Source of the DNA: a virus
IMG/VR virus record: IMGVR_UViG_3300031215_000016
Location: 1 to 61,499 of that record
Strand: one strand, 5' to 3'
Length of the DNA stretch: 61,499 nucleotides
The notes under the pieces are model-generated. The model did not search any database, had not been told where the DNA came from, and worked only from the letters and a program-made list of their open reading frames with translations. Below, piece by piece: positions 195-60,680 of this stretch; positions within the stretch are counted from its first letter, which is position 1; each line of letters opens with the position of its first letter. A program made the translations under genes and the position numbers.

Positions 195-1226
195 CTATTC
201 AAGTTTTATTTTTTTTCTCTCTTTTATAGGTACGTAAAAATCGGGCTTGTGTTCGGACACCCTGGGTTTCCAATAATCCATCACGGGCTTGTTTCTTAAT
301 TTTCTATTACTAATTTTAGTAAACTTTTGATTAAACCTAAGCCATCCATGCAAGTTCATTACGTTAACGTCCCAATCTTTATTTCTTCTACCCGAAATTT
401 TAGAATAATCTAACCCCATGTCAGCGGCCTTGTGCTTAAATTTTTTTCTGTAGTGGTGGTAGTTCCTGTTGAATGGTCTATAATTGGCGCCATCGTCAAT
501 GTGGGTCTCTCCAAACCTACTGCCCATAGTCCATGTAGAGGAGTCTATGCTAAACATTGGCCTGTTCATCAATTCGTTATATACTGTGTAGCCGAAGCCA
601 TGAAGTCTAGTATTAAACGACCTGGATATTTGGGCTATTTTGGGGTATGACTTATTCATGTTAATGCCAGACGCAATACCTACGTAGTCGTGTAGGTTGC
701 AGTACTCTTTTAGTCTTTTAAAGGCCATAACATCTTCCTTCTCATTGGGGTGTACAACGTAAACAATTTGCATGTATTTTTCTAAAGGCTTAAAATACCT
801 TTCATTCCATTCGTCTACGGCTTCTCTACCAACTATTCTGTCTAAGTCCATGTTAGCCGCACAATATATGTTGTGGCAGTTGTCGTAAAGAAATTGAATG
901 TACTCCTCAATGTACGGCTCCCAAAACTTAGGGTCTGTTGATTTGCTCCTGTCTATATTAGCGAGCAATGAGAAGGCCCCTGAGTCAGTCATAAAAACGC
1001 CCTTAGATTCTACTATTTCGGGTAACATTTCTTTTTCTGCCCAATCTAAGGACTTCCTAATATATTCGTAGGACATCAAGTAACTTAGAGCTCCTACATA
1101 TCTGACTTGTTTATATCTGTTTCTATTATTGATTGTGTAAAATAGAACCGATTTATTTTTGTCAAATTCGTTTATACAATCAAACTCTTTTCGTTGAGAT
1201 ATTTTAGAAGCCCTAAATTCACTCAT
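195..1226 (-). CDS. dpdA: DpdA-like DNA guanine transglycosylase (7-deazaguanine insertion)
   Basis: Predicted to exchange guanine bases in phage DNA for a 7-deazaguanine base, which protects the DNA from restriction. The 343-residue sequence has hallmarks of the tRNA-guanine transglycosylase superfamily: MTDSGAFSLL with Asp81 (TGT TDSGGFQ motif), a GIASGINM segment, LHGFGYT, and SIDSSTW with Asp228 as the candidate nucleophile. It lacks the C-terminal zinc site usual in tRNA enzymes, as DpdA proteins do. Its ATG overlaps the stop of the upstream oxygenase gene (ATGA, 1223-1226), so the two are probably translationally coupled. queC and a QueF-like gene precede them, which supports a DNA-modification role over a tRNA role. 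I cannot assign the DpdA subfamily from sequence alone. Confidence 0.85.
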   Translation of the reverse strand: MSEFRASKISQRKEFDCINEFDKNKSVLFYTINNRNRYKQVRYVGALSYLMSYEYIRKSLDWAEKEMLPEIVESKGVFMTDSGAFSLLANIDRSKSTDPKFWEPYIEEYIQFLYDNCHNIYCAANMDLDRIVGREAVDEWNERYFKPLEKYMQIVYVVHPNEKEDVMAFKRLKEYCNLHDYVGIASGINMNKSYPKIAQISRSFNTRLHGFGYTVYNELMNRPMFSIDSSTWTMGSRFGETHIDDGANYRPFNRNYHHYRKKFKHKAADMGLDYSKISGRRNKDWDVNVMNLHGWLRFNQKFTKISNRKLRNKPVMDYWKPRVSEHKPDFYVPIKERKKIKLE

Positions 1227-1927
1227 ATTCTAAACAGAACTGTGTCTCCTTCTTCAATAGAGAATTGAGCAACAAGGCTTGCTCTTGCTTCTGTATAACT
1301 ATGACCTTCTTTGTTCTCAAAAGGTGAAATGTCATGCTTTAGTGCGGAGTTGAAAATGATAGCTTCTCCTGCTTCAAGACGGACGGTTTTTGTTTCCGTT
1401 GTGCCCAAGTGTTTTTGGATGTTCAAATAGAAGGTCACTCCGCCAAAAACATTGCAAACTAACGTGAATAGCTTGGGGGTTTCTAGGTTGTCTACTACCT
1501 CTGATTTGTCGTATATGGCCAAATCTCTATGAGCACCACCCTTTTCTATGTGGTTTTTTAGAAAGTGAAAAACGGGGTAGTTTATGTAGTAAAAGTTTTT
1601 CAATTTAGGGCTAGAACCGTTAGAGAAAACAGCAAAATTGGCGGCCATTGTATTGGCTACAAAACTTTCTAGTTTTTTAAATAAGTCCGCGACTAAGAAT
1701 TTTTTTAGGTAATCTATATGGTACGATTCAATACTGTAACCTAAATTCATCATACTGTCATAAAGGCTTATTCTGCCCCCAATGTTAAGCTGGGTTACTC
1801 CTTTATACTCGCTTTCAAAAGCTAGGCTCTCTTCTTCGTTTTCAAATTTTAAGATTTCTGATATGAGGGCTTGGTTTGTTTCCTTTTGGGACTTGCCCAT
1901 CAACAATTTGTGGGGTTTTGTTATCAT
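1223..1927 (-). CDS. 2-oxoglutarate/Fe(II)-dependent oxygenase-like protein in the deazaguanine cluster
   Basis: This 234-residue protein shows a double-stranded beta-helix oxygenase pattern: HRD (His133, Asp135) as the HxD iron ligands, a GGVTFYLN strand, a VRLEAGEAIIF strand, His198 in LKHDISPF as the distal iron ligand, and Arg215 in ARASLVAQF as the likely 2-oxoglutarate anchor. The order and spacing resemble prolyl-4-hydroxylase-type enzymes. It sits between the QueF-like gene (one base apart) and dpdA (4-base overlap). The position suggests that it oxidises the deazaguanine base or the modified DNA, but the substrate is inference. It could instead act on an unrelated protein or nucleotide. 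Confidence 0.65.
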   Translation of the reverse strand: MITKPHKLLMGKSQKETNQALISEILKFENEEESLAFESEYKGVTQLNIGGRISLYDSMMNLGYSIESYHIDYLKKFLVADLFKKLESFVANTMAANFAVFSNGSSPKLKNFYYINYPVFHFLKNHIEKGGAHRDLAIYDKSEVVDNLETPKLFTLVCNVFGGVTFYLNIQKHLGTTETKTVRLEAGEAIIFNSALKHDISPFENKEGHSYTEARASLVAQFSIEEGDTVLFRI

Positions 1928-1928
1928 G

Positions 1929-2489
1929 TTAGTTTACTACTTTGTGGGTTATTCTGCTTTTAACCGGAGCAGATTCAAGGTGAACGTATATGGCGTTCGT
2001 CTTGAATATAACACAAAAAAAGTATTTTAAAAAATCTGCAAAGTCCTCATGTAGAATAGAAATAAATCTAAATTGGTCTAAGGCGGTTAACAGTTGACCG
2101 AACTCTATCATGATTTCGCAATGGTTTATGTGCACAGTGAGTTTGCAGTTATCATTGAACCCCGTTACAGGACAAACATTAAACAAGTCCTCAATAGTGA
2201 TTATGTATTTAGACTTAGGGAATTCTGTTTTCAGTTTCTCCTCAACAAAAACATCGCTTAGGCCCGTAATAAGTTTAGTTCTCTCTACTAGGTGTAAGAG
2301 AAGTTCTTGTTTATTGTCAAAAATGTTGCCTGTATCAGTACAGCAAGCTAGTTTAGCGTCTAAGTAAGCCTCACAATAGCTTTCAATTTTTGAATTGTCT
2401 TTTATACGCTCGAAAGCCTTTTTGTCTGAGTTTGCAAGACGGGCAATTACCACATCCTTTCCCAAAATCGTTTCTTTTGTCTGAACCAT
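1929..2489 (-). CDS. QueF-like tunnel-fold enzyme lacking the NADPH motif
   Basis: The C-terminal half matches the QueF (7-cyano-7-deazaguanine reductase) core. CPVTGFND carries the catalytic Cys106 and Asp113 seven residues later, Glu129 sits in a pocket strand, and His147-Glu148 match the FHE motif. The QueF signature E-S-K-S-x-K that binds NADPH is replaced by EFGQLL, so ordinary nitrile reduction is doubtful. QueF paralogues proposed as carboxy-deazaguanine decarboxylases (DpdL) are one alternative, recalled from literature. The chosen ATG makes the gene overlap queC by 107 bases. No ATG, GTG or TTG occurs in frame shortly after the queC stop, so either the overlap is real or a rare start codon is used. 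Confidence 0.65.
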   Translation of the reverse strand: MVQTKETILGKDVVIARLANSDKKAFERIKDNSKIESYCEAYLDAKLACCTDTGNIFDNKQELLLHLVERTKLITGLSDVFVEEKLKTEFPKSKYIITIEDLFNVCPVTGFNDNCKLTVHINHCEIMIEFGQLLTALDQFRFISILHEDFADFLKYFFCVIFKTNAIYVHLESAPVKSRITHKVVN

Positions 2490-3051
2490 AGTAGCAAGTT
2501 ACTGTATCATTTATTATAACATCTAAGCAACCTAAATCGTCAGCCAACTTGAAAGTCTCAGCCTTATTTAAGTGCATTAACGGGGTGTGTATTTTTATTG
2601 CTTCTTCGCTACCTAAATTTGTCGTTTTCTCTAGCGAATTTATGAACTCTTCTCGGCAATCAGGGTAACCTGAGTAGTCTGTTTGGCAGACCCCAGTAAC
2701 TATGTGTTCGGCCCCTATTTTTTGGGCTAAACTGTGGGCTACGGTTAAAAATAGTTGGTTTCTGTTAGGGACAAAAGAGGAAGGAAGTCCTTTTTTATTT
2801 GTTTTATTGACATCGCCACTATGAACTAGTGCGCTGTTGGTTAGGTTTTTTACGAAACCTAATTCTACACCATGGAGTGGTATAGATAGTCTTTTAATTA
2901 TTTTTATGGCAGCAGAAACCTCATGTATGTGGTTTTGTCCATAATCGAAAGTGATAGCTTCTACTTCCTTAAAATTAGAAATTGCCCAGAAAAGGCATGT
3001 TGTGGAGTCTTGTCCACCGCTAAAAACTACTACTGCTTTTTGGTCAATCAT
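2383..3051 (-). CDS. queC: QueC, 7-cyano-7-deazaguanine (preQ0) synthase
   Basis: Converts 7-carboxy-7-deazaguanine to preQ0 with ATP and ammonia. The 222-residue protein has the N-terminal PP-loop SGGQDS (11-16), the TGVCQTDYSGYPDCR substrate segment (120-133), and the zinc-binding cysteines Cys186, Cys200, Cys203 and Cys206 (CGNCPSCKLR). All hallmark residues are intact and the length is normal for the family. It opens the modification cluster, followed by the QueF-like gene, the oxygenase and dpdA. folE, the first pathway enzyme, is encoded far away at 24941-25594. queD and queE are not in the window. A terminator-like hairpin separates it from the gene upstream. Confidence 0.95.
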   Translation of the reverse strand: MIDQKAVVVFSGGQDSTTCLFWAISNFKEVEAITFDYGQNHIHEVSAAIKIIKRLSIPLHGVELGFVKNLTNSALVHSGDVNKTNKKGLPSSFVPNRNQLFLTVAHSLAQKIGAEHIVTGVCQTDYSGYPDCREEFINSLEKTTNLGSEEAIKIHTPLMHLNKAETFKLADDLGCLDVIINDTVTCYYGSDKRNDFGKGCGNCPSCKLRQKGFRAYKRQFKN

Positions 3052-5835: not shown

Positions 5836-7662
5836 TTATGATATTAGTCTGTTCATTTTCTTTGCTACATACTTACCTAGCATGTTCGGCAATTCTTCTA
5901 AGTCGGTAAATTTTATATAGTTGCTAAACATCTTCTCAGAAGACACCGAATTGTCAATCGCTATTTGGATGATTTCTGTTCCACTATTTTCAATCTCCTT
6001 AACACATTTTCTAGTGTGCGCTACTGCTTCTTCGCCACTATATCCCGAAGATTGTGGGTCTCCATCTGATATTATTATGTATAGAAAGTTATCACCTATT
6101 TTTCTCTTAGCTATTTTGTGGACTTCTTTTATTGCATCGCCATCCCTGTTGTTATATTTGGCTCTAACGTTTCCAAGCGAGTAAGGGTTTTTTGTTTGAT
6201 TTCCTTCGCAATAAACACTTATATTAAGTGGGTACTTTGACGGTTCAGTAGGAGCTGTTAAATCCGATGTGTGCCCGTATATGTAATGGTCTATTGCAGG
6301 AATATCTTTAAATGCCTCGTTTAGTGCTATCGCGGCTGCTTTCGCATTTTTTATTCTACTTCCGTGCATAGAGCCACTCTCATCAATAAGCAGAACAACG
6401 CTTAGTTTCTTAGACTCCTGGTTGTGTCTTTTTTTGTACACATTGGGCGAGCCTGATATTACTTTTACTGGATTGCTTAAATCTAGCTTACCTGAGTTTT
6501 GAGAACTTAGGTCGTAAGCCCTGACTTTTCTGAATTTGTTGAATACGTATTTTAGTCTATTTACTACTGAAGATATAGAATTCCTGGTGTTATGATACTC
6601 TACGTAATTATCTTGTGGTTCGTTGTACAACAATTCGTAATCACCTTCACTGTTCTCTGAGTCATGCGGATGTTTTTTGTAGTCTTCACCCTTTTCGCTT
6701 TCTTCTTCTTTGTCGGGGTCTTCCCCACCACCACTGTCTGATGTTTCTGGGGCTTCTCCTTTAGGTGTGCCACCTATTTCTGGGTCTTCATCGTCCATTT
6801 CCATAGGTTGATATTTAGAAACCATCTCTTTCACACCTTCAACTAATCTAATAAGGTCTTCGGGGCTTAAATCCTCGGGGATGTGGTTTTCTAATTTTAG
6901 GAATATAGTCATAGCTAAATCCTGAGCATCTTTTACAGTGTCTATTGGGGAAGACATAGTGTCCTTTACAAACTCTAAAAAAGACATATTGTAAGCCATG
7001 TTAGCCAAATCTTGGTTTTTATGCGGCCTTAAAACATCGTAAAGAATAGTGATTAATTCATCTAGCTTGCTGTTATACTTGGGTGCGGATTCCCTGTCTA
7101 TATTTGCGTAGTAATGAGAGCAGAACATTAAGTGCCTAAAGTGTCTAGGTTTGTGCTCTTTTATTTTCTGCTCAATTCTAACGTCCTCAATTATATTTAA
7201 AACAGTTTTGTATATGCCTGTTTTGCTGTTACCAAATCTGTCAGCAACAGACTTTAGGTGTGGGCCTAAATTGTGCATTTCGCTGTAAAGTATGTGAGCA
7301 CTTTCGTGAACACCTAAACCAAGGACTGCGGAGTAAGAGTAGCCAAAGCCCGAAGTTTCTGACGACCTAAAAGGGGCTAAGGCTACTTGTACTTTCTCTC
7401 CATCTGTTAAGCTATCCCTGTCGTGGAAGACAAAGTATTTCTTCTTAACTTTTTTATCAATAAGTCCTGTGCACATTCTTATGCAGTCTCTTTTGGTTTT
7501 GCTAATGGCCAACCGAGTATTTAACTTTTCGCTTTTAAAGTAAGGTATCGGTACGTGACTAGGTAGGTCGTGTTCGGGGATTACCGAAAAATCTACTAAA
7601 CCAATATGCTCTTCGTAAAAGCTATCTATATCTGATTTTATATCCTCAAGTTCTGTTAACAT
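5836..7662 (-). CDS. CobT-like VWA protein with an N-terminal HExxH metallopeptidase-like domain
   Basis: The N-terminal half carries HESAH (119-123) followed by NIIEDVRIE (156-164), the arrangement of metallopeptidase-like domains found in some VWA proteins. A very acidic, low-complexity linker follows (about 287-345). The C-terminal VWA domain has a complete MIDAS motif, DESGS (Asp427), and later SDGDP. Such proteins pair with MoxR/CobS-type AAA+ ATPases to remodel or metallate partner proteins. The AAA+ partner is the gene immediately upstream (two bases apart). CobS/CobT homologues are known in phages, but their substrates are mostly unknown. A true cobalt chelatase role is unlikely without the large subunit. 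Confidence 0.8.
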   Translation of the reverse strand: MLTELEDIKSDIDSFYEEHIGLVDFSVIPEHDLPSHVPIPYFKSEKLNTRLAISKTKRDCIRMCTGLIDKKVKKKYFVFHDRDSLTDGEKVQVALAPFRSSETSGFGYSYSAVLGLGVHESAHILYSEMHNLGPHLKSVADRFGNSKTGIYKTVLNIIEDVRIEQKIKEHKPRHFRHLMFCSHYYANIDRESAPKYNSKLDELITILYDVLRPHKNQDLANMAYNMSFLEFVKDTMSSPIDTVKDAQDLAMTIFLKLENHIPEDLSPEDLIRLVEGVKEMVSKYQPMEMDDEDPEIGGTPKGEAPETSDSGGGEDPDKEEESEKGEDYKKHPHDSENSEGDYELLYNEPQDNYVEYHNTRNSISSVVNRLKYVFNKFRKVRAYDLSSQNSGKLDLSNPVKVISGSPNVYKKRHNQESKKLSVVLLIDESGSMHGSRIKNAKAAAIALNEAFKDIPAIDHYIYGHTSDLTAPTEPSKYPLNISVYCEGNQTKNPYSLGNVRAKYNNRDGDAIKEVHKIAKRKIGDNFLYIIISDGDPQSSGYSGEEAVAHTRKCVKEIENSGTEIIQIAIDNSVSSEKMFSNYIKFTDLEELPNMLGKYVAKKMNRLIS

Positions 7663-7664
7663 AA

Positions 7665-9110
7665 TTAAGATTTTTGAGATAGGGTTTCTATTTCGATTTC
7701 AAACTCCTCGGAAAGTTCTTTAGGAACTCTCGGCATTAGGTAAGACTTGCATGCCTTTTCTACACTAAAACCACCAACAACTCTAGTTGTTATAACCTTT
7801 GTGGCTCGTATTGATGGCACATAGTCGTACTCTTTTTCTAGGCAAAGGCTCCTTATTTCTTGGATTATGTTAACAATCGTGTTACATATAGGGTCTGACA
7901 GAGAACCCTTAGAAACATGCTTAACAATAGCCAACTCTACTTCCTTTTTGGGGTAATCAAACTCTATTATGTACATGCGTTCTCTAAGGGCCTCATCAAT
8001 ATTGCTAGTACCTGAGTACTTACCACCAATGTTAGCAGTACCAAAGAACACAGTGCCTTTACCAACTTTGAACTTTTTGTCGGTCGCTTTATAAGCAATA
8101 GGTATTGTTACAGTTCTCCTATCGTCAAGTATCGGGAATAATATGTTGCTTGCGTTCGGGTCAATCCTATTGATTTCGTCACAAAGAACTACTGTGTTTT
8201 CCTTTTTACAGAAAGATGCGAACGGGGCCAAAGAAAAATTAGATGCTCCGTCAAGAAGGGTTAGTTGGCCAAGCAAACCTGATACGGGGTCTGTCATGGT
8301 GCTCATATCTACGTATTCGTAGTTCATGCCTATCTTTCTAGCTAGGTGCTCAATAACTGTTGTTTTTCCAACACCGGAAGGGCCAGTAATTAATGTGGGT
8401 ATATTTTGAAGAGCATTGAAAACTAAGTCGCTCCAAATATCCTTCTCTACAAGGATGTTGTCGTCCTCAAGATTTGGTGTGCTTAGCTTTTTGTCGGTCT
8501 CTATGCGGTGCAGAACTGAACCTGGGGGGGAAGAAGAAGCGATTGTATTTATGACATCCTTAAACACGTAAGTTTCGGGCATATCATCCATTGATGTTTT
8601 TCCCTGAGTTTGCAAATCTAATTCGATTGCTTGGTTCCAAATAACCATATTCTTAAATATGGGAAGATACCTAGAGGACATCTCGTCAATTTTGGGTGTG
8701 TCAAGAAGGGGAGTAAAATTGTTATCCTCTGTAACTAAGTAAGAATGGTCACTGTCTATTCTAATACTACCCTTAGATATGTTTTCCTCTAAATCCTTTC
8801 TATCTATTAAGGTTAGAATTGTTTTTGGCCCGTCTATACACTTAGGCTTTATAATTTCTGTAAGAGATATATCGCAATTTGTGGGGTAGCTATTAACCTG
8901 AGCCACAATGGGGTATTCAAAAATATAATCTACTTTATCACCTATTTTTTTGATACTAACGTTTGCATATTGAAAGGGGCGAACTTCCCACTTTGGTAGC
9001 CAACGGGCATCTTGCCTATCTTGAAGAACAACCAATATAGGTGTTTTATTTAAGAGTATTTTTTTGGCCCTCTTTGCAGCCACGGGTACTACCTTATTTA
9101 TTGTCGGCAT
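7665..9110 (-). CDS. MoxR/CobS-like AAA+ ATPase
   Basis: An unrecognised N-terminal region of about 220 residues precedes the AAA+ core, which has Walker A GPSGVGKT (243-250), Walker B VVLCDEINRID (Asp311-Glu312), a sensor-1 FFGTANIGG segment, and the arginine-finger region EALRERMYIIEF. It is the MoxR partner of the VWA protein encoded directly downstream. The gene follows a 77-base gap that contains the ATATTAGTA promoter-like element, so it probably begins a transcript. Confidence 0.85.
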   Translation of the reverse strand: MPTINKVVPVAAKRAKKILLNKTPILVVLQDRQDARWLPKWEVRPFQYANVSIKKIGDKVDYIFEYPIVAQVNSYPTNCDISLTEIIKPKCIDGPKTILTLIDRKDLEENISKGSIRIDSDHSYLVTEDNNFTPLLDTPKIDEMSSRYLPIFKNMVIWNQAIELDLQTQGKTSMDDMPETYVFKDVINTIASSSPPGSVLHRIETDKKLSTPNLEDDNILVEKDIWSDLVFNALQNIPTLITGPSGVGKTTVIEHLARKIGMNYEYVDMSTMTDPVSGLLGQLTLLDGASNFSLAPFASFCKKENTVVLCDEINRIDPNASNILFPILDDRRTVTIPIAYKATDKKFKVGKGTVFFGTANIGGKYSGTSNIDEALRERMYIIEFDYPKKEVELAIVKHVSKGSLSDPICNTIVNIIQEIRSLCLEKEYDYVPSIRATKVITTRVVGGFSVEKACKSYLMPRVPKELSEEFEIEIETLSQKS

Positions 9111-23383: not shown

Positions 23384-24948
23384 TTCCCTGGGCAATAAAA
23401 AAATCTTTAATGGCAGTACCAAAAGGTTCTGTTGATGTTAAAACCCTAGAGAAAGACTTGTCTGTAAAAGAGTTAGGGTTCACTAATAAAGGAAGAAAAA
23501 GCTTAGGCATTAAGCCTTTATGGAGAGAAGATAGTGAAAGATTTTATTTGCCCAGAAACTATCTAAGGAATAAGGGGATAAAAATAAAGGAGTTTAGAGA
23601 CTTGACAAAAGAAGGGACAGAGTGCCCAAAAATGGTTTTTAAAGCCAAACTAAGGGATTACCAAGAAGAGTTCTTTAGGCAGCACGATAGGCTCTTTACG
23701 GACACCGATGTAGTAATAGAAGCTGGTTGCGGTTCGGGTAAAACTGTTATGAGCATCTACATGGTTTGTAAAAGGGCAGTAAAAACTATTGTTTTGGTTC
23801 CGACTAATTTTTTGGCCGACCAATATTACGACCGGTGTGTAGAGTTTGTTGATGGAGCCAAAGTGTCTAGGGCAACAACAAAGAAAATTGATTGGGAAGA
23901 CGCTGACATACTGATACTATCCTACGAGCTTTTCAAAGTAAGGAAGTTTACAAAAGAGTTTTTTGAAGAGTTTGGCCATTTTGTTATTGATGAAGGTCAT
24001 AGAGTAGGCGCGGACGGGCATGAAAAAATAACAGCGATGATGCCTGCAAAATATAGGACAATGCTTACTGCTACATTTCGTAGAGAAGACGGTACTATGG
24101 AAATTATTGAGCACCATTTTTCTTTTCGCGCCAAAATGAAAAAAGTAAATCCAGACGTGTTGGTGTTCCCTTTAAACATAGGAAAGAAATACGGAACTAT
24201 TGTAAGTTTTAAAAAGAATTTTGAGAAAGAAAAAAGCAAATCAGAGTTACTGGAAGCTTTAAAAGTTATGGAAGACGTTGGTGTATCAATGTTAAGAAAA
24301 GGACACAACGTAGAGTTCCTAGAACCTATGGAAGTACAGAAATGCTTTTTTAAAATAAACCACAACGTATTAAGCAAAAAAACCTCAAACATAATTGACA
24401 GCATCATATACAAAGTAGGGTTAGCAACCAAAAATCCCCAATATGCCGCAGTAGATAGTTATGTATCCATGGACAAAGTAAGAAATGTTAAGCTTGCTAA
24501 ATTTTGCAGAGATTTAGTTGTAAGGGATGGGAGAAGAGTTTTAATATTGGGCAAAAGATTAGACCAATTAAATTATTTTGATAGCTATTTAAAAAATTGT
24601 GGCATAGTTTCGCAAGTATTAAATAGGGAAACAAACGCGGCTTTGAGGAAAGCGAAAAAACTAGAAAAAACCATCGGGGAAGCCCAAGTAATAGTGGGCA
24701 TAGATAAGTTAGCAAAAGAGGGGATGGACGTAGATAAATTAGACACCCTAGTGCTGCTAACTCCCATAGGTGACACGGAGCAAGCTTTTGGTAGGGTGAG
24801 CAGAATACTTAAAGGAAAAAAGAAACCATACGCATTTTACCCATACGACCAGTGCACACCTTACCAACAAATATTCAAAAAATCACAAAAATTTATACCA
24901 ATTAACGGGAGAATCCAAAAAGAAATATATTTAGACGATTATGTATAG
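23380..24948 (+). CDS. SF2 DEAD/DEAH-type helicase (XPB/RapA-like)
   Basis: The 522-residue superfamily 2 helicase has KLRDYQEEFF (Q-like motif), EAGCGSGKT (motif I), LVPTNFLADQ (Ia), FVIDEGHR (II, DEGH), MLTATFRREDG (III), and in the C-terminal domain RVLILGKRLDQ (IV), VIVGIDKLAKEGMDVDKLDTLVLL (V) and QAFGRVSRI (VI). All motifs are intact. It probably unwinds branched DNA in replication or recombination. It overlaps both neighbours by 4-8 bases. Confidence 0.9.
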   Translation: MIPWAIKKSLMAVPKGSVDVKTLEKDLSVKELGFTNKGRKSLGIKPLWREDSERFYLPRNYLRNKGIKIKEFRDLTKEGTECPKMVFKAKLRDYQEEFFRQHDRLFTDTDVVIEAGCGSGKTVMSIYMVCKRAVKTIVLVPTNFLADQYYDRCVEFVDGAKVSRATTKKIDWEDADILILSYELFKVRKFTKEFFEEFGHFVIDEGHRVGADGHEKITAMMPAKYRTMLTATFRREDGTMEIIEHHFSFRAKMKKVNPDVLVFPLNIGKKYGTIVSFKKNFEKEKSKSELLEALKVMEDVGVSMLRKGHNVEFLEPMEVQKCFFKINHNVLSKKTSNIIDSIIYKVGLATKNPQYAAVDSYVSMDKVRNVKLAKFCRDLVVRDGRRVLILGKRLDQLNYFDSYLKNCGIVSQVLNRETNAALRKAKKLEKTIGEAQVIVGIDKLAKEGMDVDKLDTLVLLTPIGDTEQAFGRVSRILKGKKKPYAFYPYDQCTPYQQIFKKSQKFIPINGRIQKEIYLDDYV

Positions 24949-25594
24949 GAAAGACAAAGAGTTAGGTTTAGAAGTAAAGAACCACTTAATTGAGGAAGGG
25001 ATAGAAAACCCTACAATAGAAGTTTTGGGCGACCAAAAAAAAGAGGTAGAAAAGTTTGCTGCAAAAATGTTAGAGTCCATAGGGATAGACCTAAGTAACT
25101 CTTCGACTAAAGGCACTCCAAGGAGATTAGCTAAGATGTTTGTAGATGAACTTTTCTGGGGACTTAATTACGATAATTTTCCTGCCCTTCAAGTAACTGA
25201 GGACGAATATGGAGTCTATGATTCAATGATAATCGAGAAAGCCATACCAGTAAAAAGCATGTGTGAACACCACTTAATGCCAATAAAGGGTATTTGCTCT
25301 ATAGCCTACATCCCAAACAAAAAGATATTGGGGTTATCGAAATTGAACAGAGTGGTTAGGTTCTTTAGTAGGCGGCCACAAATACAGGAGAGGTTAACAG
25401 AGCAAATACATGCGGCAATGGCTTGGGTACTAGAAACAGACGATGTGGCTGTTCACATGAGCGCTGAGCACTTCTGTGTGTCTCATAGAGGGGTAGAAGA
25501 CCATGGAACAGTTACGGAGACCATGAGACTGTCGGGGGCATTCAAAGAAGACCCTGCGGCTCGTTCAGAGTTTACCCAAACGGTGAACAAATGA
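24941..25594 (+). CDS. folE: GTP cyclohydrolase I (FolE)
   Basis: It makes dihydroneopterin triphosphate from GTP, the first step toward 7-deazaguanine bases (and folate). The 217 residues show GTPRRLAKMF, SMCEHHLMPIKG with the zinc ligands Cys108 and His111 and neighbouring His110, LGLSKLNRVVRFFSRRPQ, and AEHFCVSHRGV with Cys179. All catalytic motifs are present. Given queC and dpdA elsewhere in the genome, its likely job is to supply the DNA-modification pathway. Confidence 0.95.
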   Translation: MYRKDKELGLEVKNHLIEEGIENPTIEVLGDQKKEVEKFAAKMLESIGIDLSNSSTKGTPRRLAKMFVDELFWGLNYDNFPALQVTEDEYGVYDSMIIEKAIPVKSMCEHHLMPIKGICSIAYIPNKKILGLSKLNRVVRFFSRRPQIQERLTEQIHAAMAWVLETDDVAVHMSAEHFCVSHRGVEDHGTVTETMRLSGAFKEDPAARSEFTQTVNK

Positions 25595-58244: not shown

Positions 58245-60680
58245 TTAATTGTAACTATTCTGTCTTATGGATTCCATCATTCCTGCGCCTGGATAAAAAG
58301 GGTTGTGTTCTTCTTGCTCTACATAGTCTTCTACGAGTATGTCCATATTGGCGCCAAGAGTGGCTAAACCCAAAGAATCTAAATAATCATCAAAACTGTG
58401 TGGCCCCTTTTGAACAACTAGTAAACCACCAACGTAAAATCTTACGGCCGAAGTAAGCTGCTTTTCAAAATTTTTGTACTCCTCAGAATCTCTTACGGAT
58501 TTGTAAGCTGGCACAACAATACGGTCTTTTTGCATGTCTTCTTCTAAGGATTGCCACATATCTGACTTAGAAGTTCTTGAAAACACATAAGGTACTACTT
58601 GGGTTTCTGGGGGAGCGTTGAACATAAGTCTTTCTGTTGGCGCATTACCAACACCCGTAGAATCACAAACAACGTAAGTAGGCATCCACAAATCAATTAA
58701 GTCCATAATAGCTATGTGTTGGTCTTCGTAACTAGTGCTAGGGAATTCATACCAATTAAGTAGCCTTTTATTTGGCTTATCTGCTTCATAATCTTCCACA
58801 GACTCATGTAGCTCGTTGCTTGGGTAAACTTCTACTATTGTTAGGACAGTAGAGTTGTTTTCTTTTGCCCAGTCTATACCAAAAACTATGTGTGTTTCTT
58901 GTCCGTCAGGCAAAATAAATTTGCTGATAGGCACTACTTCCTGTGGGTCTGATTCTGTTTTGAGTTTCTTATTTAAAAGGGCTTCAAATTTTTTCTCTGT
59001 ACAAAACATGCCCGTCTCGAAAGTCCATACCAGTGCGTATGAAAGTTTAAATGCGTCTGAATCTTTACCCCAACGGTGGTACTTTTTCATAACATCTTTT
59101 TGGTAAAGTAGGTGGTACTTTTTACCATCAACCTCGTACTGCTTTTTCCTAGATGCTATTATGGATTTGTAATCGTATTCGTAGTGTGTTTTTAGTCTTT
59201 TATCATCGACTGCTCGGTCTGCTTTTTTATTAAATTGTATCTCTTCGTAAAAATGATTCTTACTTGTTCCAGTAGTTCCACACCTAAGTATGGTTCCCCC
59301 TGTTGCTGAAACCATTGGTTCAATACTTTTCTGCGCGATAAGTGAGTCTATTTCTTGGGTTTCATCAATAACAGCTAAGTCTAACGTCTTACCCTCAATT
59401 TTAGATTGTTTTGAAGCTGTTTGGGCGGAGCAGATAGAGTCATTAGTTAGTTTGAGTCGGGCTAAGGATATGATTCCCGTGTCTATGTCTTCATCGGACA
59501 TAACCATAGCAGCGTTGTGCGAACCTATACGAGACTTTGTTCTTCCATAAACGTTATCCACTTGCTCTGATTGAGGGGCGAATAAACCAGATTTAAAACC
59601 AGTACTAAATTGACCTAAATCGTCTTCAAAAATGTCGGCTAACTTAGGGAGTATAACCATCAGAGTAGCTACTACGAAAGCCACAACCTCTGACTTGCCA
59701 CAATTATGCAGCTTTATGCCCCCACAAGTGAACCAATGTTTCTCTGGAACTTCTACGTCATAAACGTCATAGAAACCATCAAAAGTTATATTCAAAAGCG
59801 GGGCAAATTTATATTGCTCTCCGTCTTCTCCCATAAAGTCGTATTCGGGGACAGTAGGACAAACTCCGGTGCGTAGGAATTTTTCAAAAGTCTTATTCAT
59901 AAAGTCCGCAGGAAACTTTACATAAAAACCAGTATTACCGAGCTTATCTATTACTGATTTATCTATGAAGGACGGGAAACCAAATTTATTTAGGACTTGC
60001 TGGATAGTTTCTGCTACTGTTCGGTCGGGAGCAAAGAAAGAATCTTTCTTGTAGAGGTTATTTAGAAGGTCTATGCAGTCTTTTCTGCTAAGCTTTGACA
60101 CCATTGAGGGGAAATCAATGTTAGTGTCTCTCTGGTCTACTGTGGTCTTTTCTGGGAACTTATCCCACTTGACTAGACAAGCTATTTCTTCGCCAATTTT
60201 TAAGTCTTCTGCTTTTTTCCAACCATCCCTAGTGTGCACTGGGTGGTTATTAGTTAGGAACACTTCGTGCCCAAGATAAGATGTGTACTTCTTAACGGGT
60301 CTGTTCTTTGCGGTTAGCCAAGCGTTGGGGTGGTTTTCAATGGCGCACAAAGAGCCATCTCTGTTATGAATAACTGAGCCCTTCTTTACACACTGTCTTG
60401 ACGTGAGCAACGTAATAGATGCTCCTTCTAAGGTAATGACTGAGTAAATCACTCGGTACGCTGGGGCATATTGGTAGTCATACAAGTCTATGCCCGTAAG
60501 CATGGCCCCAAACTTCATTATCTTATCAGTTAAATCATGGGGGTCAAAAGCAAATTCTCCCGACATATCACTAGAGAAGTCATCTGGAAAGTCGTTTATT
60601 AATTCTTCCGCATCGGAGCTAACTGTTTTAGTTATTCTGCTCTCGTCTGTTTTATATTTCTTGTTTCTCAACTTAGGCAT
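58245..60680 (-). CDS. terL: Terminase large subunit containing an intein
   Basis: The 811-residue translation becomes a 581-residue terminase after splicing. Walker A is SRQCGKSE, interrupted between Gln96 and Cys327. Walker B is DLAVIDETQEI (Asp439-Glu440), motif III GTTGTSKN, and the RNase H-like nuclease acids are Asp603 (FGIDWAKENNS), Asp673 (VVCDSTGVG) and Asp764 or Asp765 (SFDDYLDSLG). All catalytic residues are present. It packages DNA into the prohead. No clear small-subunit gene was recognised next to it. Confidence 0.95.
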   Translation of the reverse strand: MPKLRNKKYKTDESRITKTVSSDAEELINDFPDDFSSDMSGEFAFDPHDLTDKIMKFGAMLTGIDLYDYQYAPAYRVIYSVITLEGASITLLTSRQCVKKGSVIHNRDGSLCAIENHPNAWLTAKNRPVKKYTSYLGHEVFLTNNHPVHTRDGWKKAEDLKIGEEIACLVKWDKFPEKTTVDQRDTNIDFPSMVSKLSRKDCIDLLNNLYKKDSFFAPDRTVAETIQQVLNKFGFPSFIDKSVIDKLGNTGFYVKFPADFMNKTFEKFLRTGVCPTVPEYDFMGEDGEQYKFAPLLNITFDGFYDVYDVEVPEKHWFTCGGIKLHNCGKSEVVAFVVATLMVILPKLADIFEDDLGQFSTGFKSGLFAPQSEQVDNVYGRTKSRIGSHNAAMVMSDEDIDTGIISLARLKLTNDSICSAQTASKQSKIEGKTLDLAVIDETQEIDSLIAQKSIEPMVSATGGTILRCGTTGTSKNHFYEEIQFNKKADRAVDDKRLKTHYEYDYKSIIASRKKQYEVDGKKYHLLYQKDVMKKYHRWGKDSDAFKLSYALVWTFETGMFCTEKKFEALLNKKLKTESDPQEVVPISKFILPDGQETHIVFGIDWAKENNSTVLTIVEVYPSNELHESVEDYEADKPNKRLLNWYEFPSTSYEDQHIAIMDLIDLWMPTYVVCDSTGVGNAPTERLMFNAPPETQVVPYVFSRTSKSDMWQSLEEDMQKDRIVVPAYKSVRDSEEYKNFEKQLTSAVRFYVGGLLVVQKGPHSFDDYLDSLGLATLGANMDILVEDYVEQEEHNPFYPGAGMMESIRQNSYN
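59703..60392 (-). other. Intein (230 codons) in the terminase P-loop
   Basis: It spans residues 97-326 of the translation. It starts CVKKGSVIHN (block A, Cys1), has block B FLTNNHPVHTRDG (Thr47-x2-His50), block F YDVYDVEVPEKHWF, and block G GGIKLHN with penultimate His229 and terminal Asn230, followed by Cys+1. All splicing residues are present. The middle 100 residues (DCIDLLNNLYKKDSFF ... VLNKFGFPS) look like a degraded LAGLIDADG homing endonuclease, so the element is probably a mini- or decaying intein. Confidence 0.92.

Follow-up and report, generated by a model that had tools for sequence, protein, structure and literature searches.

A phage QueF homologue without the NADPH motif as a candidate for non-reductive, QueF-Like-type chemistry

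In this work we asked what a homologue of the nitrile reductase QueF might do in a phage once its motif of NADPH-binding residues has been lost. The window, as we call the stretch of DNA analysed, corresponds to a linear virus record of IMG/VR with 61,499 nucleotides (IMGVR_UViG_3300031215_000016, positions 1 to 61,499). In a first-pass annotation one of its open reading frames was described as a QueF homologue with the segment CPVTGFND, containing Cys106 and Asp113, and the reading frame, its coordinates, its strand and both residues are indeed as described there. We call this protein, together with its orthologue in a second phage contig, L261, QueF*. On the minus strand at the left end of the window the gene order is QueC, QueF*, a 2OG-Fe(II)-oxygenase-like protein and DpdA, and the contig ends just past DpdA. 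A further gene of the pathway lies elsewhere on the plus strand:

2383..3051, minus strand: QueC, the preQ0 synthase, full length (PF06508 7.7e-77, TIGR00364 6e-76)
1929..2489, minus strand: QueF*, 186 amino acids, with its ATG at 2489 and a 107-bp overlap with the end of queC
1223..1927, minus strand: 2OG-Fe(II) oxygenase-like protein, with a weak family match (PF13759 0.025)
195..1226, minus strand: DpdA-type guanine transglycosylase (phrog_887 1.5e-27)
24941..25594, plus strand: FolE, GTP cyclohydrolase I, the first enzyme of the pathway (NF006824 1.6e-73)

The QueC of the window is 54-57% identical to the QueC of other phages, some of which are annotated as dPreQ0 synthase, and its DpdA shares 39-43% identity with proteins from two other phages, one of Bacteroides and one faecal. 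No QueD or QueE was found in the window, which stops at the point where QueD starts in L261. Two other observations concern the window itself. An ORF pair at 5836-9110 on the minus strand encodes a von Willebrand A (CobT-like) protein and an AAA+ ATPase (MoxR/CobS-like), and its order is kept upstream of the L261 cluster. A terminase-like ORF at 58245-60680, also on the minus strand, carries an apparent intein at the Walker A region (TSRQ / CVKKG ... HNCGKSE), as judged by eye. An intein-like insert also seemingly interrupts the DpdA of the faecal phage MT835482 (L003:5965-8163), after FFSSDSS.

The window ORF is a T-fold/QueF homologue, and the homology that had been proposed for it is borne out by the rank of an HMM search, by profile comparison and by structural matches. 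Curated models barely recognise the protein, with no Pfam match up to E = 1 and a match to TIGR03139 (QueF-II) at E = 0.013. Direct protein searches found no relative in phages, viral contigs, plasmids or the PDB, and the phage search at E <= 10 gave a single chance match in a Vibrio phage. An HMM built from 161 motif-bearing QueFs, with QueF* itself excluded, ranks the window protein first of the 693 six-frame ORFs of the window and L261 (domain E = 2e-7), followed by the L261 orthologue (7e-5) and by FolE, a true T-fold relative. In hhalign the two-member QueF* family matches 43 QueFs with a probability of 94.7% (E = 6e-8) and the archaeal QueF-Like proteins with 94% (E = 1e-7). An AlphaFold model based on a 45-sequence alignment predicts a T-fold core at about residues 91-186 (pLDDT about 90), preceded by some 90 N-terminal residues without a confident fold; an earlier model from 9 sequences was set aside (pLDDT 56). 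The structure prediction that had been suggested as a check thus yields a model that fits both QueF-Like 5jyx, its best match (Z 13.5, 98 residues, 2.1 A), and QueF 4f8b (Z 12.4), the two scores lying within about 1 Z of each other.

In QueF, Cys55 is the residue that forms the thioimide and Glu97 the anchor for preQ0, and NADPH-binding residues lie in the motif E(S/L)K(S/A)hK; the family is defined by Cys55, Asp62, Glu97 and this motif, which includes Glu78 (PMC5372742). The corresponding positions in the window are as follows:

2172..2174, minus strand: Cys106 (QueF Cys55), the predicted thioimide nucleophile, invariant in 45 sequences, in 21 archaeal QueF-Like relatives and in L261
2151..2153, minus strand: Asp113 (QueF Asp62), the predicted general acid/base, at an aligned position conserved in QueF, the archaeal QueF-Like relatives and L261
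2091..2105, minus strand: EFGQL (residues 129-133) where QueF has the NADPH motif E(S/L)K(S/A)h, with Glu129 retained and the lysine lost; ELGQL in L261
2046..2051, minus strand: His147-Glu148, of which Glu148 (QueF Glu97, the preQ0 anchor) is invariant and His147 is Thr in L261

The equivalents of Cys55, Asp62, Glu97 and Glu78 are therefore all found in QueF*, the last two as Glu148 and Glu129, and so is the T-fold core. The full motif E(S/L)K(S/A)hK(L/Y)(Y/F/W) is missing from both members, which read EFGQLLTA in the window and ELGQLGLS in L261. Replacement of the motif by EFGQLL (129-134) had been noted in the first-pass annotation; the loss is confirmed, but the first residue of that segment, Glu129, is the retained motif glutamate. 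The His147-Glu148 pair reported there is likewise present in the window, but only its glutamate is conserved. The earlier suggestion that the protein binds a 7-deazaguanine, probably covalently, and carries out no normal NADPH reduction is made plausible by this combination of four retained residues and an otherwise vanished motif.

The second member was found with DpdA as bait. Contig L261 encodes a DpdA 65% identical to that of the window and, at 6083-6661, a QueF* that is 36% identical to the window protein and overlaps queC likewise. Its genes are ordered QueC, QueF*, methyltransferase-like, 2OG-like, methyltransferase-like, DpdA, QueD, a Cys-rich protein and QueE, with FolE elsewhere, so that compared with the window there are two additional methyltransferase-like genes and the FolE/QueD/QueE/QueC set is complete. 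Its QueC is a full match (TIGR00364 6e-69). The 2OG and methyltransferase assignments are based on weak family scores (for the 2OG-like protein of L261, PF13759 0.01 and phrog_81 0.0045), and the HxD (H133, D135), H198 and R215 of the window's oxygenase-like protein are also present in the L261 orthologue by alignment. The L261 QueF* retains Cys106, Pro107, Thr109, Gly110, Asp113, Glu129, Gly131, Gln132, Leu133, Glu148 and Asp149. It reads ELGQLG where QueF has ES/LKSxK, and since the gene and its cluster correspond to those of the window, the motif loss is no sequencing error. Outside the queC overlap the identities between the two genes at the three codon positions are 0.49/0.61/0.31, which indicates that the reading frame is maintained and fits protein-level constraint. 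Inside the overlap the QueC frame can explain the likeness of the N-termini, judging from the codon positions, and we have left it uncounted. Searches of the phage, plasmid and viral collections gave no third member. A scan of viral contigs for C-P...D...E-x-G-Q-L gave L261 and one other match, L269, which we rejected as a chance match with in-frame stops. As a separate observation, the Cys-rich ORF downstream of DpdA in L261 (10515-11336) aligns with the C-terminal portion of phrog_887 (2.6e-17) and DpdA with its N-terminal portion, so that this lineage appears to have DpdA divided between two proteins.

The closest characterised precedent for QueF* is the archaeosine synthase QueF-Like of Crenarchaeota (PDB 5JYX/5K0P), which had not been considered in the first-pass annotation. 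This enzyme works without NADPH, and its Cys thioimide on preQ0-tRNA is attacked by free NH4+ (PMC5485725). Archaeal relatives were gathered from the 37 of 398 genomes with a match, and 21 proteins were aligned; being related to the characterised QueF-Like, they would be expected to make archaeosine. Among the 21, invariance is limited to Cys, Pro, Asp and Glu. Nearly all have another residue where the motif lysine would be (AIEEF, ELGSF in two cases, ELNSL, EAYSF, EALSL), and several carry Gln instead of the His, so the EFGQL/ELGQL and the His to Thr change of QueF* have near precedents. The kept and the lost positions of QueF* match those of these relatives, and it shares with QueF-Like the T-fold core, the Cys-Asp spacing, the base-anchoring Glu, the absent motif and the preQ0 route. 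There are differences, however. The P. calidifontis QueF-Like has lost the motif Glu that QueF* retains, whereas QueF* has an N-terminal extension of about 90 residues, has Thr for His in L261 and neighbours a DNA transglycosylase rather than a tRNA pathway. Within the archaea, the replacements at loci L290-L303 (ELGSF, ELNSL, EAYSF, EALSL, some with His to Gln) may mark separate subfamilies.

Likeness to QueF-Like does not make QueF* a descendant of it. In the tree an archaeal QueF-Like clade (100/99) is separate from the QueF* clade (100/99), which falls outside it, and the sequence closest to QueF* is that of a phage QueF whose ELKS motif is intact; reverse profile scores agree. As the QueF* branch is long, this placement is tentative. 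A first tree, in which QueF-Like grouped with an archaeal ELKS protein, was due to one long-branch fragment and has been superseded. The position beside a motif-bearing phage QueF suggests that the motif was probably lost in phages independently of archaea, which is the simplest reading of the sequences. Unimodular QueFs (B. subtilis, PDB 4F8B; phage QueFs such as L020) share the Cys, Asp, Glu97 and Glu78 equivalents and in phages are also linked to QueC and DpdA. They differ in having E(S/L)K(S/A)hK where QueF* has E(F/L)GQL and in an RGG(I) arginine that is not clearly kept in QueF*, which has a Lys nearby and no conserved His. Judged by its motif QueF* is no QueF, and judged by the tree it falls outside the archaeal QueF-Like clade. 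Profile scores for QueF against QueF-Like do not separate the two for QueF*, and with its place in the tree apart from QueF-Like this means that function cannot be read from ancestry.

We tentatively propose, with a probability of roughly 0.42, that QueF* is a non-reductive enzyme of the QueF superfamily, encoded by phages, which works like archaeal QueF-Like and gives dG+. QueC would supply preQ0, which DpdA probably inserts into DNA, so that DNA rather than the free base would be the substrate. Cys106 would attack the nitrile to give a thioimide, with Asp113 as acid/base and with Glu148 and Glu129 holding the base. Since NADPH would be unable to bind, ammonia could attack in place of hydride, and the product released would be 7-formamidino-7-deazaguanine (archaeosine, dG+), a base already known in phage DNA (PMC6884629). 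That the chemistry is something other than NADPH-dependent reduction is, judged from sequence and predicted structure, very probable; this reaction type is more certain than which nucleophile, if any, is used. The presence of QueC beside QueF*, which had been thought to make the chemistry unclear, is expected of an enzyme that starts from preQ0 and forms a Cys thioimide without NADPH. A phage pathway from preQ0 to dG+ with DpdA exists in Enterobacteria phage 9g, but there an amidotransferase domain fused to QueC (Gat-QueC) is used, which is non-homologous to QueF*.

dG+ may not be the final product. The adjoining 2OG-like gene and the two methyltransferase-like genes in L261 suggest that the final base may be more elaborate, with an oxygenase-like step following. 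A further-reaching version, which we regard as rather unlikely, is that QueF*, the 2OG-like protein and in L261 the two methyltransferase-like proteins build a DNA base not yet described, such as an N-substituted, hydroxylated or methylated amidine, by T-fold non-reductive chemistry that evolved independently of QueF-Like.

Two other readings are improbable. In the first, water would take the place of ammonia and resolve the same thioimide to the amide (dADG) or the acid (dCDG). dCDG is known in phage DNA, and we know of no characterised T-fold precedent for nitrile hydration. The QueC reaction already passes through the amide, so that nitrile hydration, raised as a candidate in the first-pass annotation, would be chemically possible but redundant as a separate step. 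dADG is known in phage DNA as well (PMC8306585), yet the QueF thioimide is reported to be very stable to decomposition (PMC5372742). In the second reading, of similar standing, QueF* binds preQ0 without turnover and carries it from QueC to DpdA. The gene overlap with queC, the closeness to DpdA, the long N-terminal extension and the loss of the reduction residues would suit such a handover, but the catalytic Cys and Asp are kept besides the binding Glu residues at only 36% overall identity, and related phages with QueC-like and DpdA proteins do without QueF*.

Lower still we place an ArcS-like scheme, in which QueF* transfers a primary amine onto the nitrile and the 2OG-oxygenase-like neighbour then oxidises or cleaves the adduct. 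ArcS is described as transferring lysine in Euryarchaea (PMC11298593), after which a second enzyme finishes G+. The 2OG-like gene is found in both clusters with HxD/H/R kept, and L261 adds its methyltransferase-like genes. However, a related phage that lacks QueF* also has a clear 2OG-Fe(II) oxygenase (L262:10237-10830, PF13640, 1.9e-8) adjoining its DpdA, so oxygenase and QueF* are not strictly coupled. We consider it just as doubtful that QueF* is still a reductase making preQ1 from preQ0, with NADPH or some other reductant held in a different way. Its nearest tree neighbour has an intact motif, Glu129 is kept, as is His147 in the window, and other phage QueFs give dPreQ1 (PMC6884629). Against this, both motif lysines are lost in both members and the His in L261, whereas all 130 matches of an ILHE/IFHE pattern scan retain the motif, one as ELRS; the scan demanded His and Glu and is uninformative on how often the His is lost. 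One phage QueF with intact ELKS (L041:1715-3483) has, by eye, a DpdA-like ORF before it and a formyltransferase-like ORF after it, as expected for a formylated dPreQ1 pathway.

The DpdL-type decarboxylation of CDG to 7-deazaguanine, the lead of the first-pass annotation, is very improbable: DpdL, a predicted phage CDG decarboxylase, belongs to phage 7-deazaguanine gene sets, but from the chemistry we would expect it to act without QueC, a context that sets it apart from QueF*, since both phages have an intact QueC next to QueF* and thioimide chemistry requires a nitrile. No QueF homologue was found in Cellulophaga phage phiST, where FolE/QueD/QueE are encoded and QueC is absent; CGPG_00067 of this phage, a guess by eye at a DpdL, had no Pfam support and was dropped.

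If the proposed QueF-Like-type role of QueF* is correct, a phage lineage would have made a nitrile reductase non-reductive independently of archaea. This would add to Gat-QueC and ArcS another way of making dG+ in DNA, or else yield a new DNA base. It would also suggest that one and the same thioimide can be steered to a different outcome by loss of the motif lysines. In phage genomes, QueF annotations based only on the Cys/Asp signature would then call for a check of the NADPH motif.
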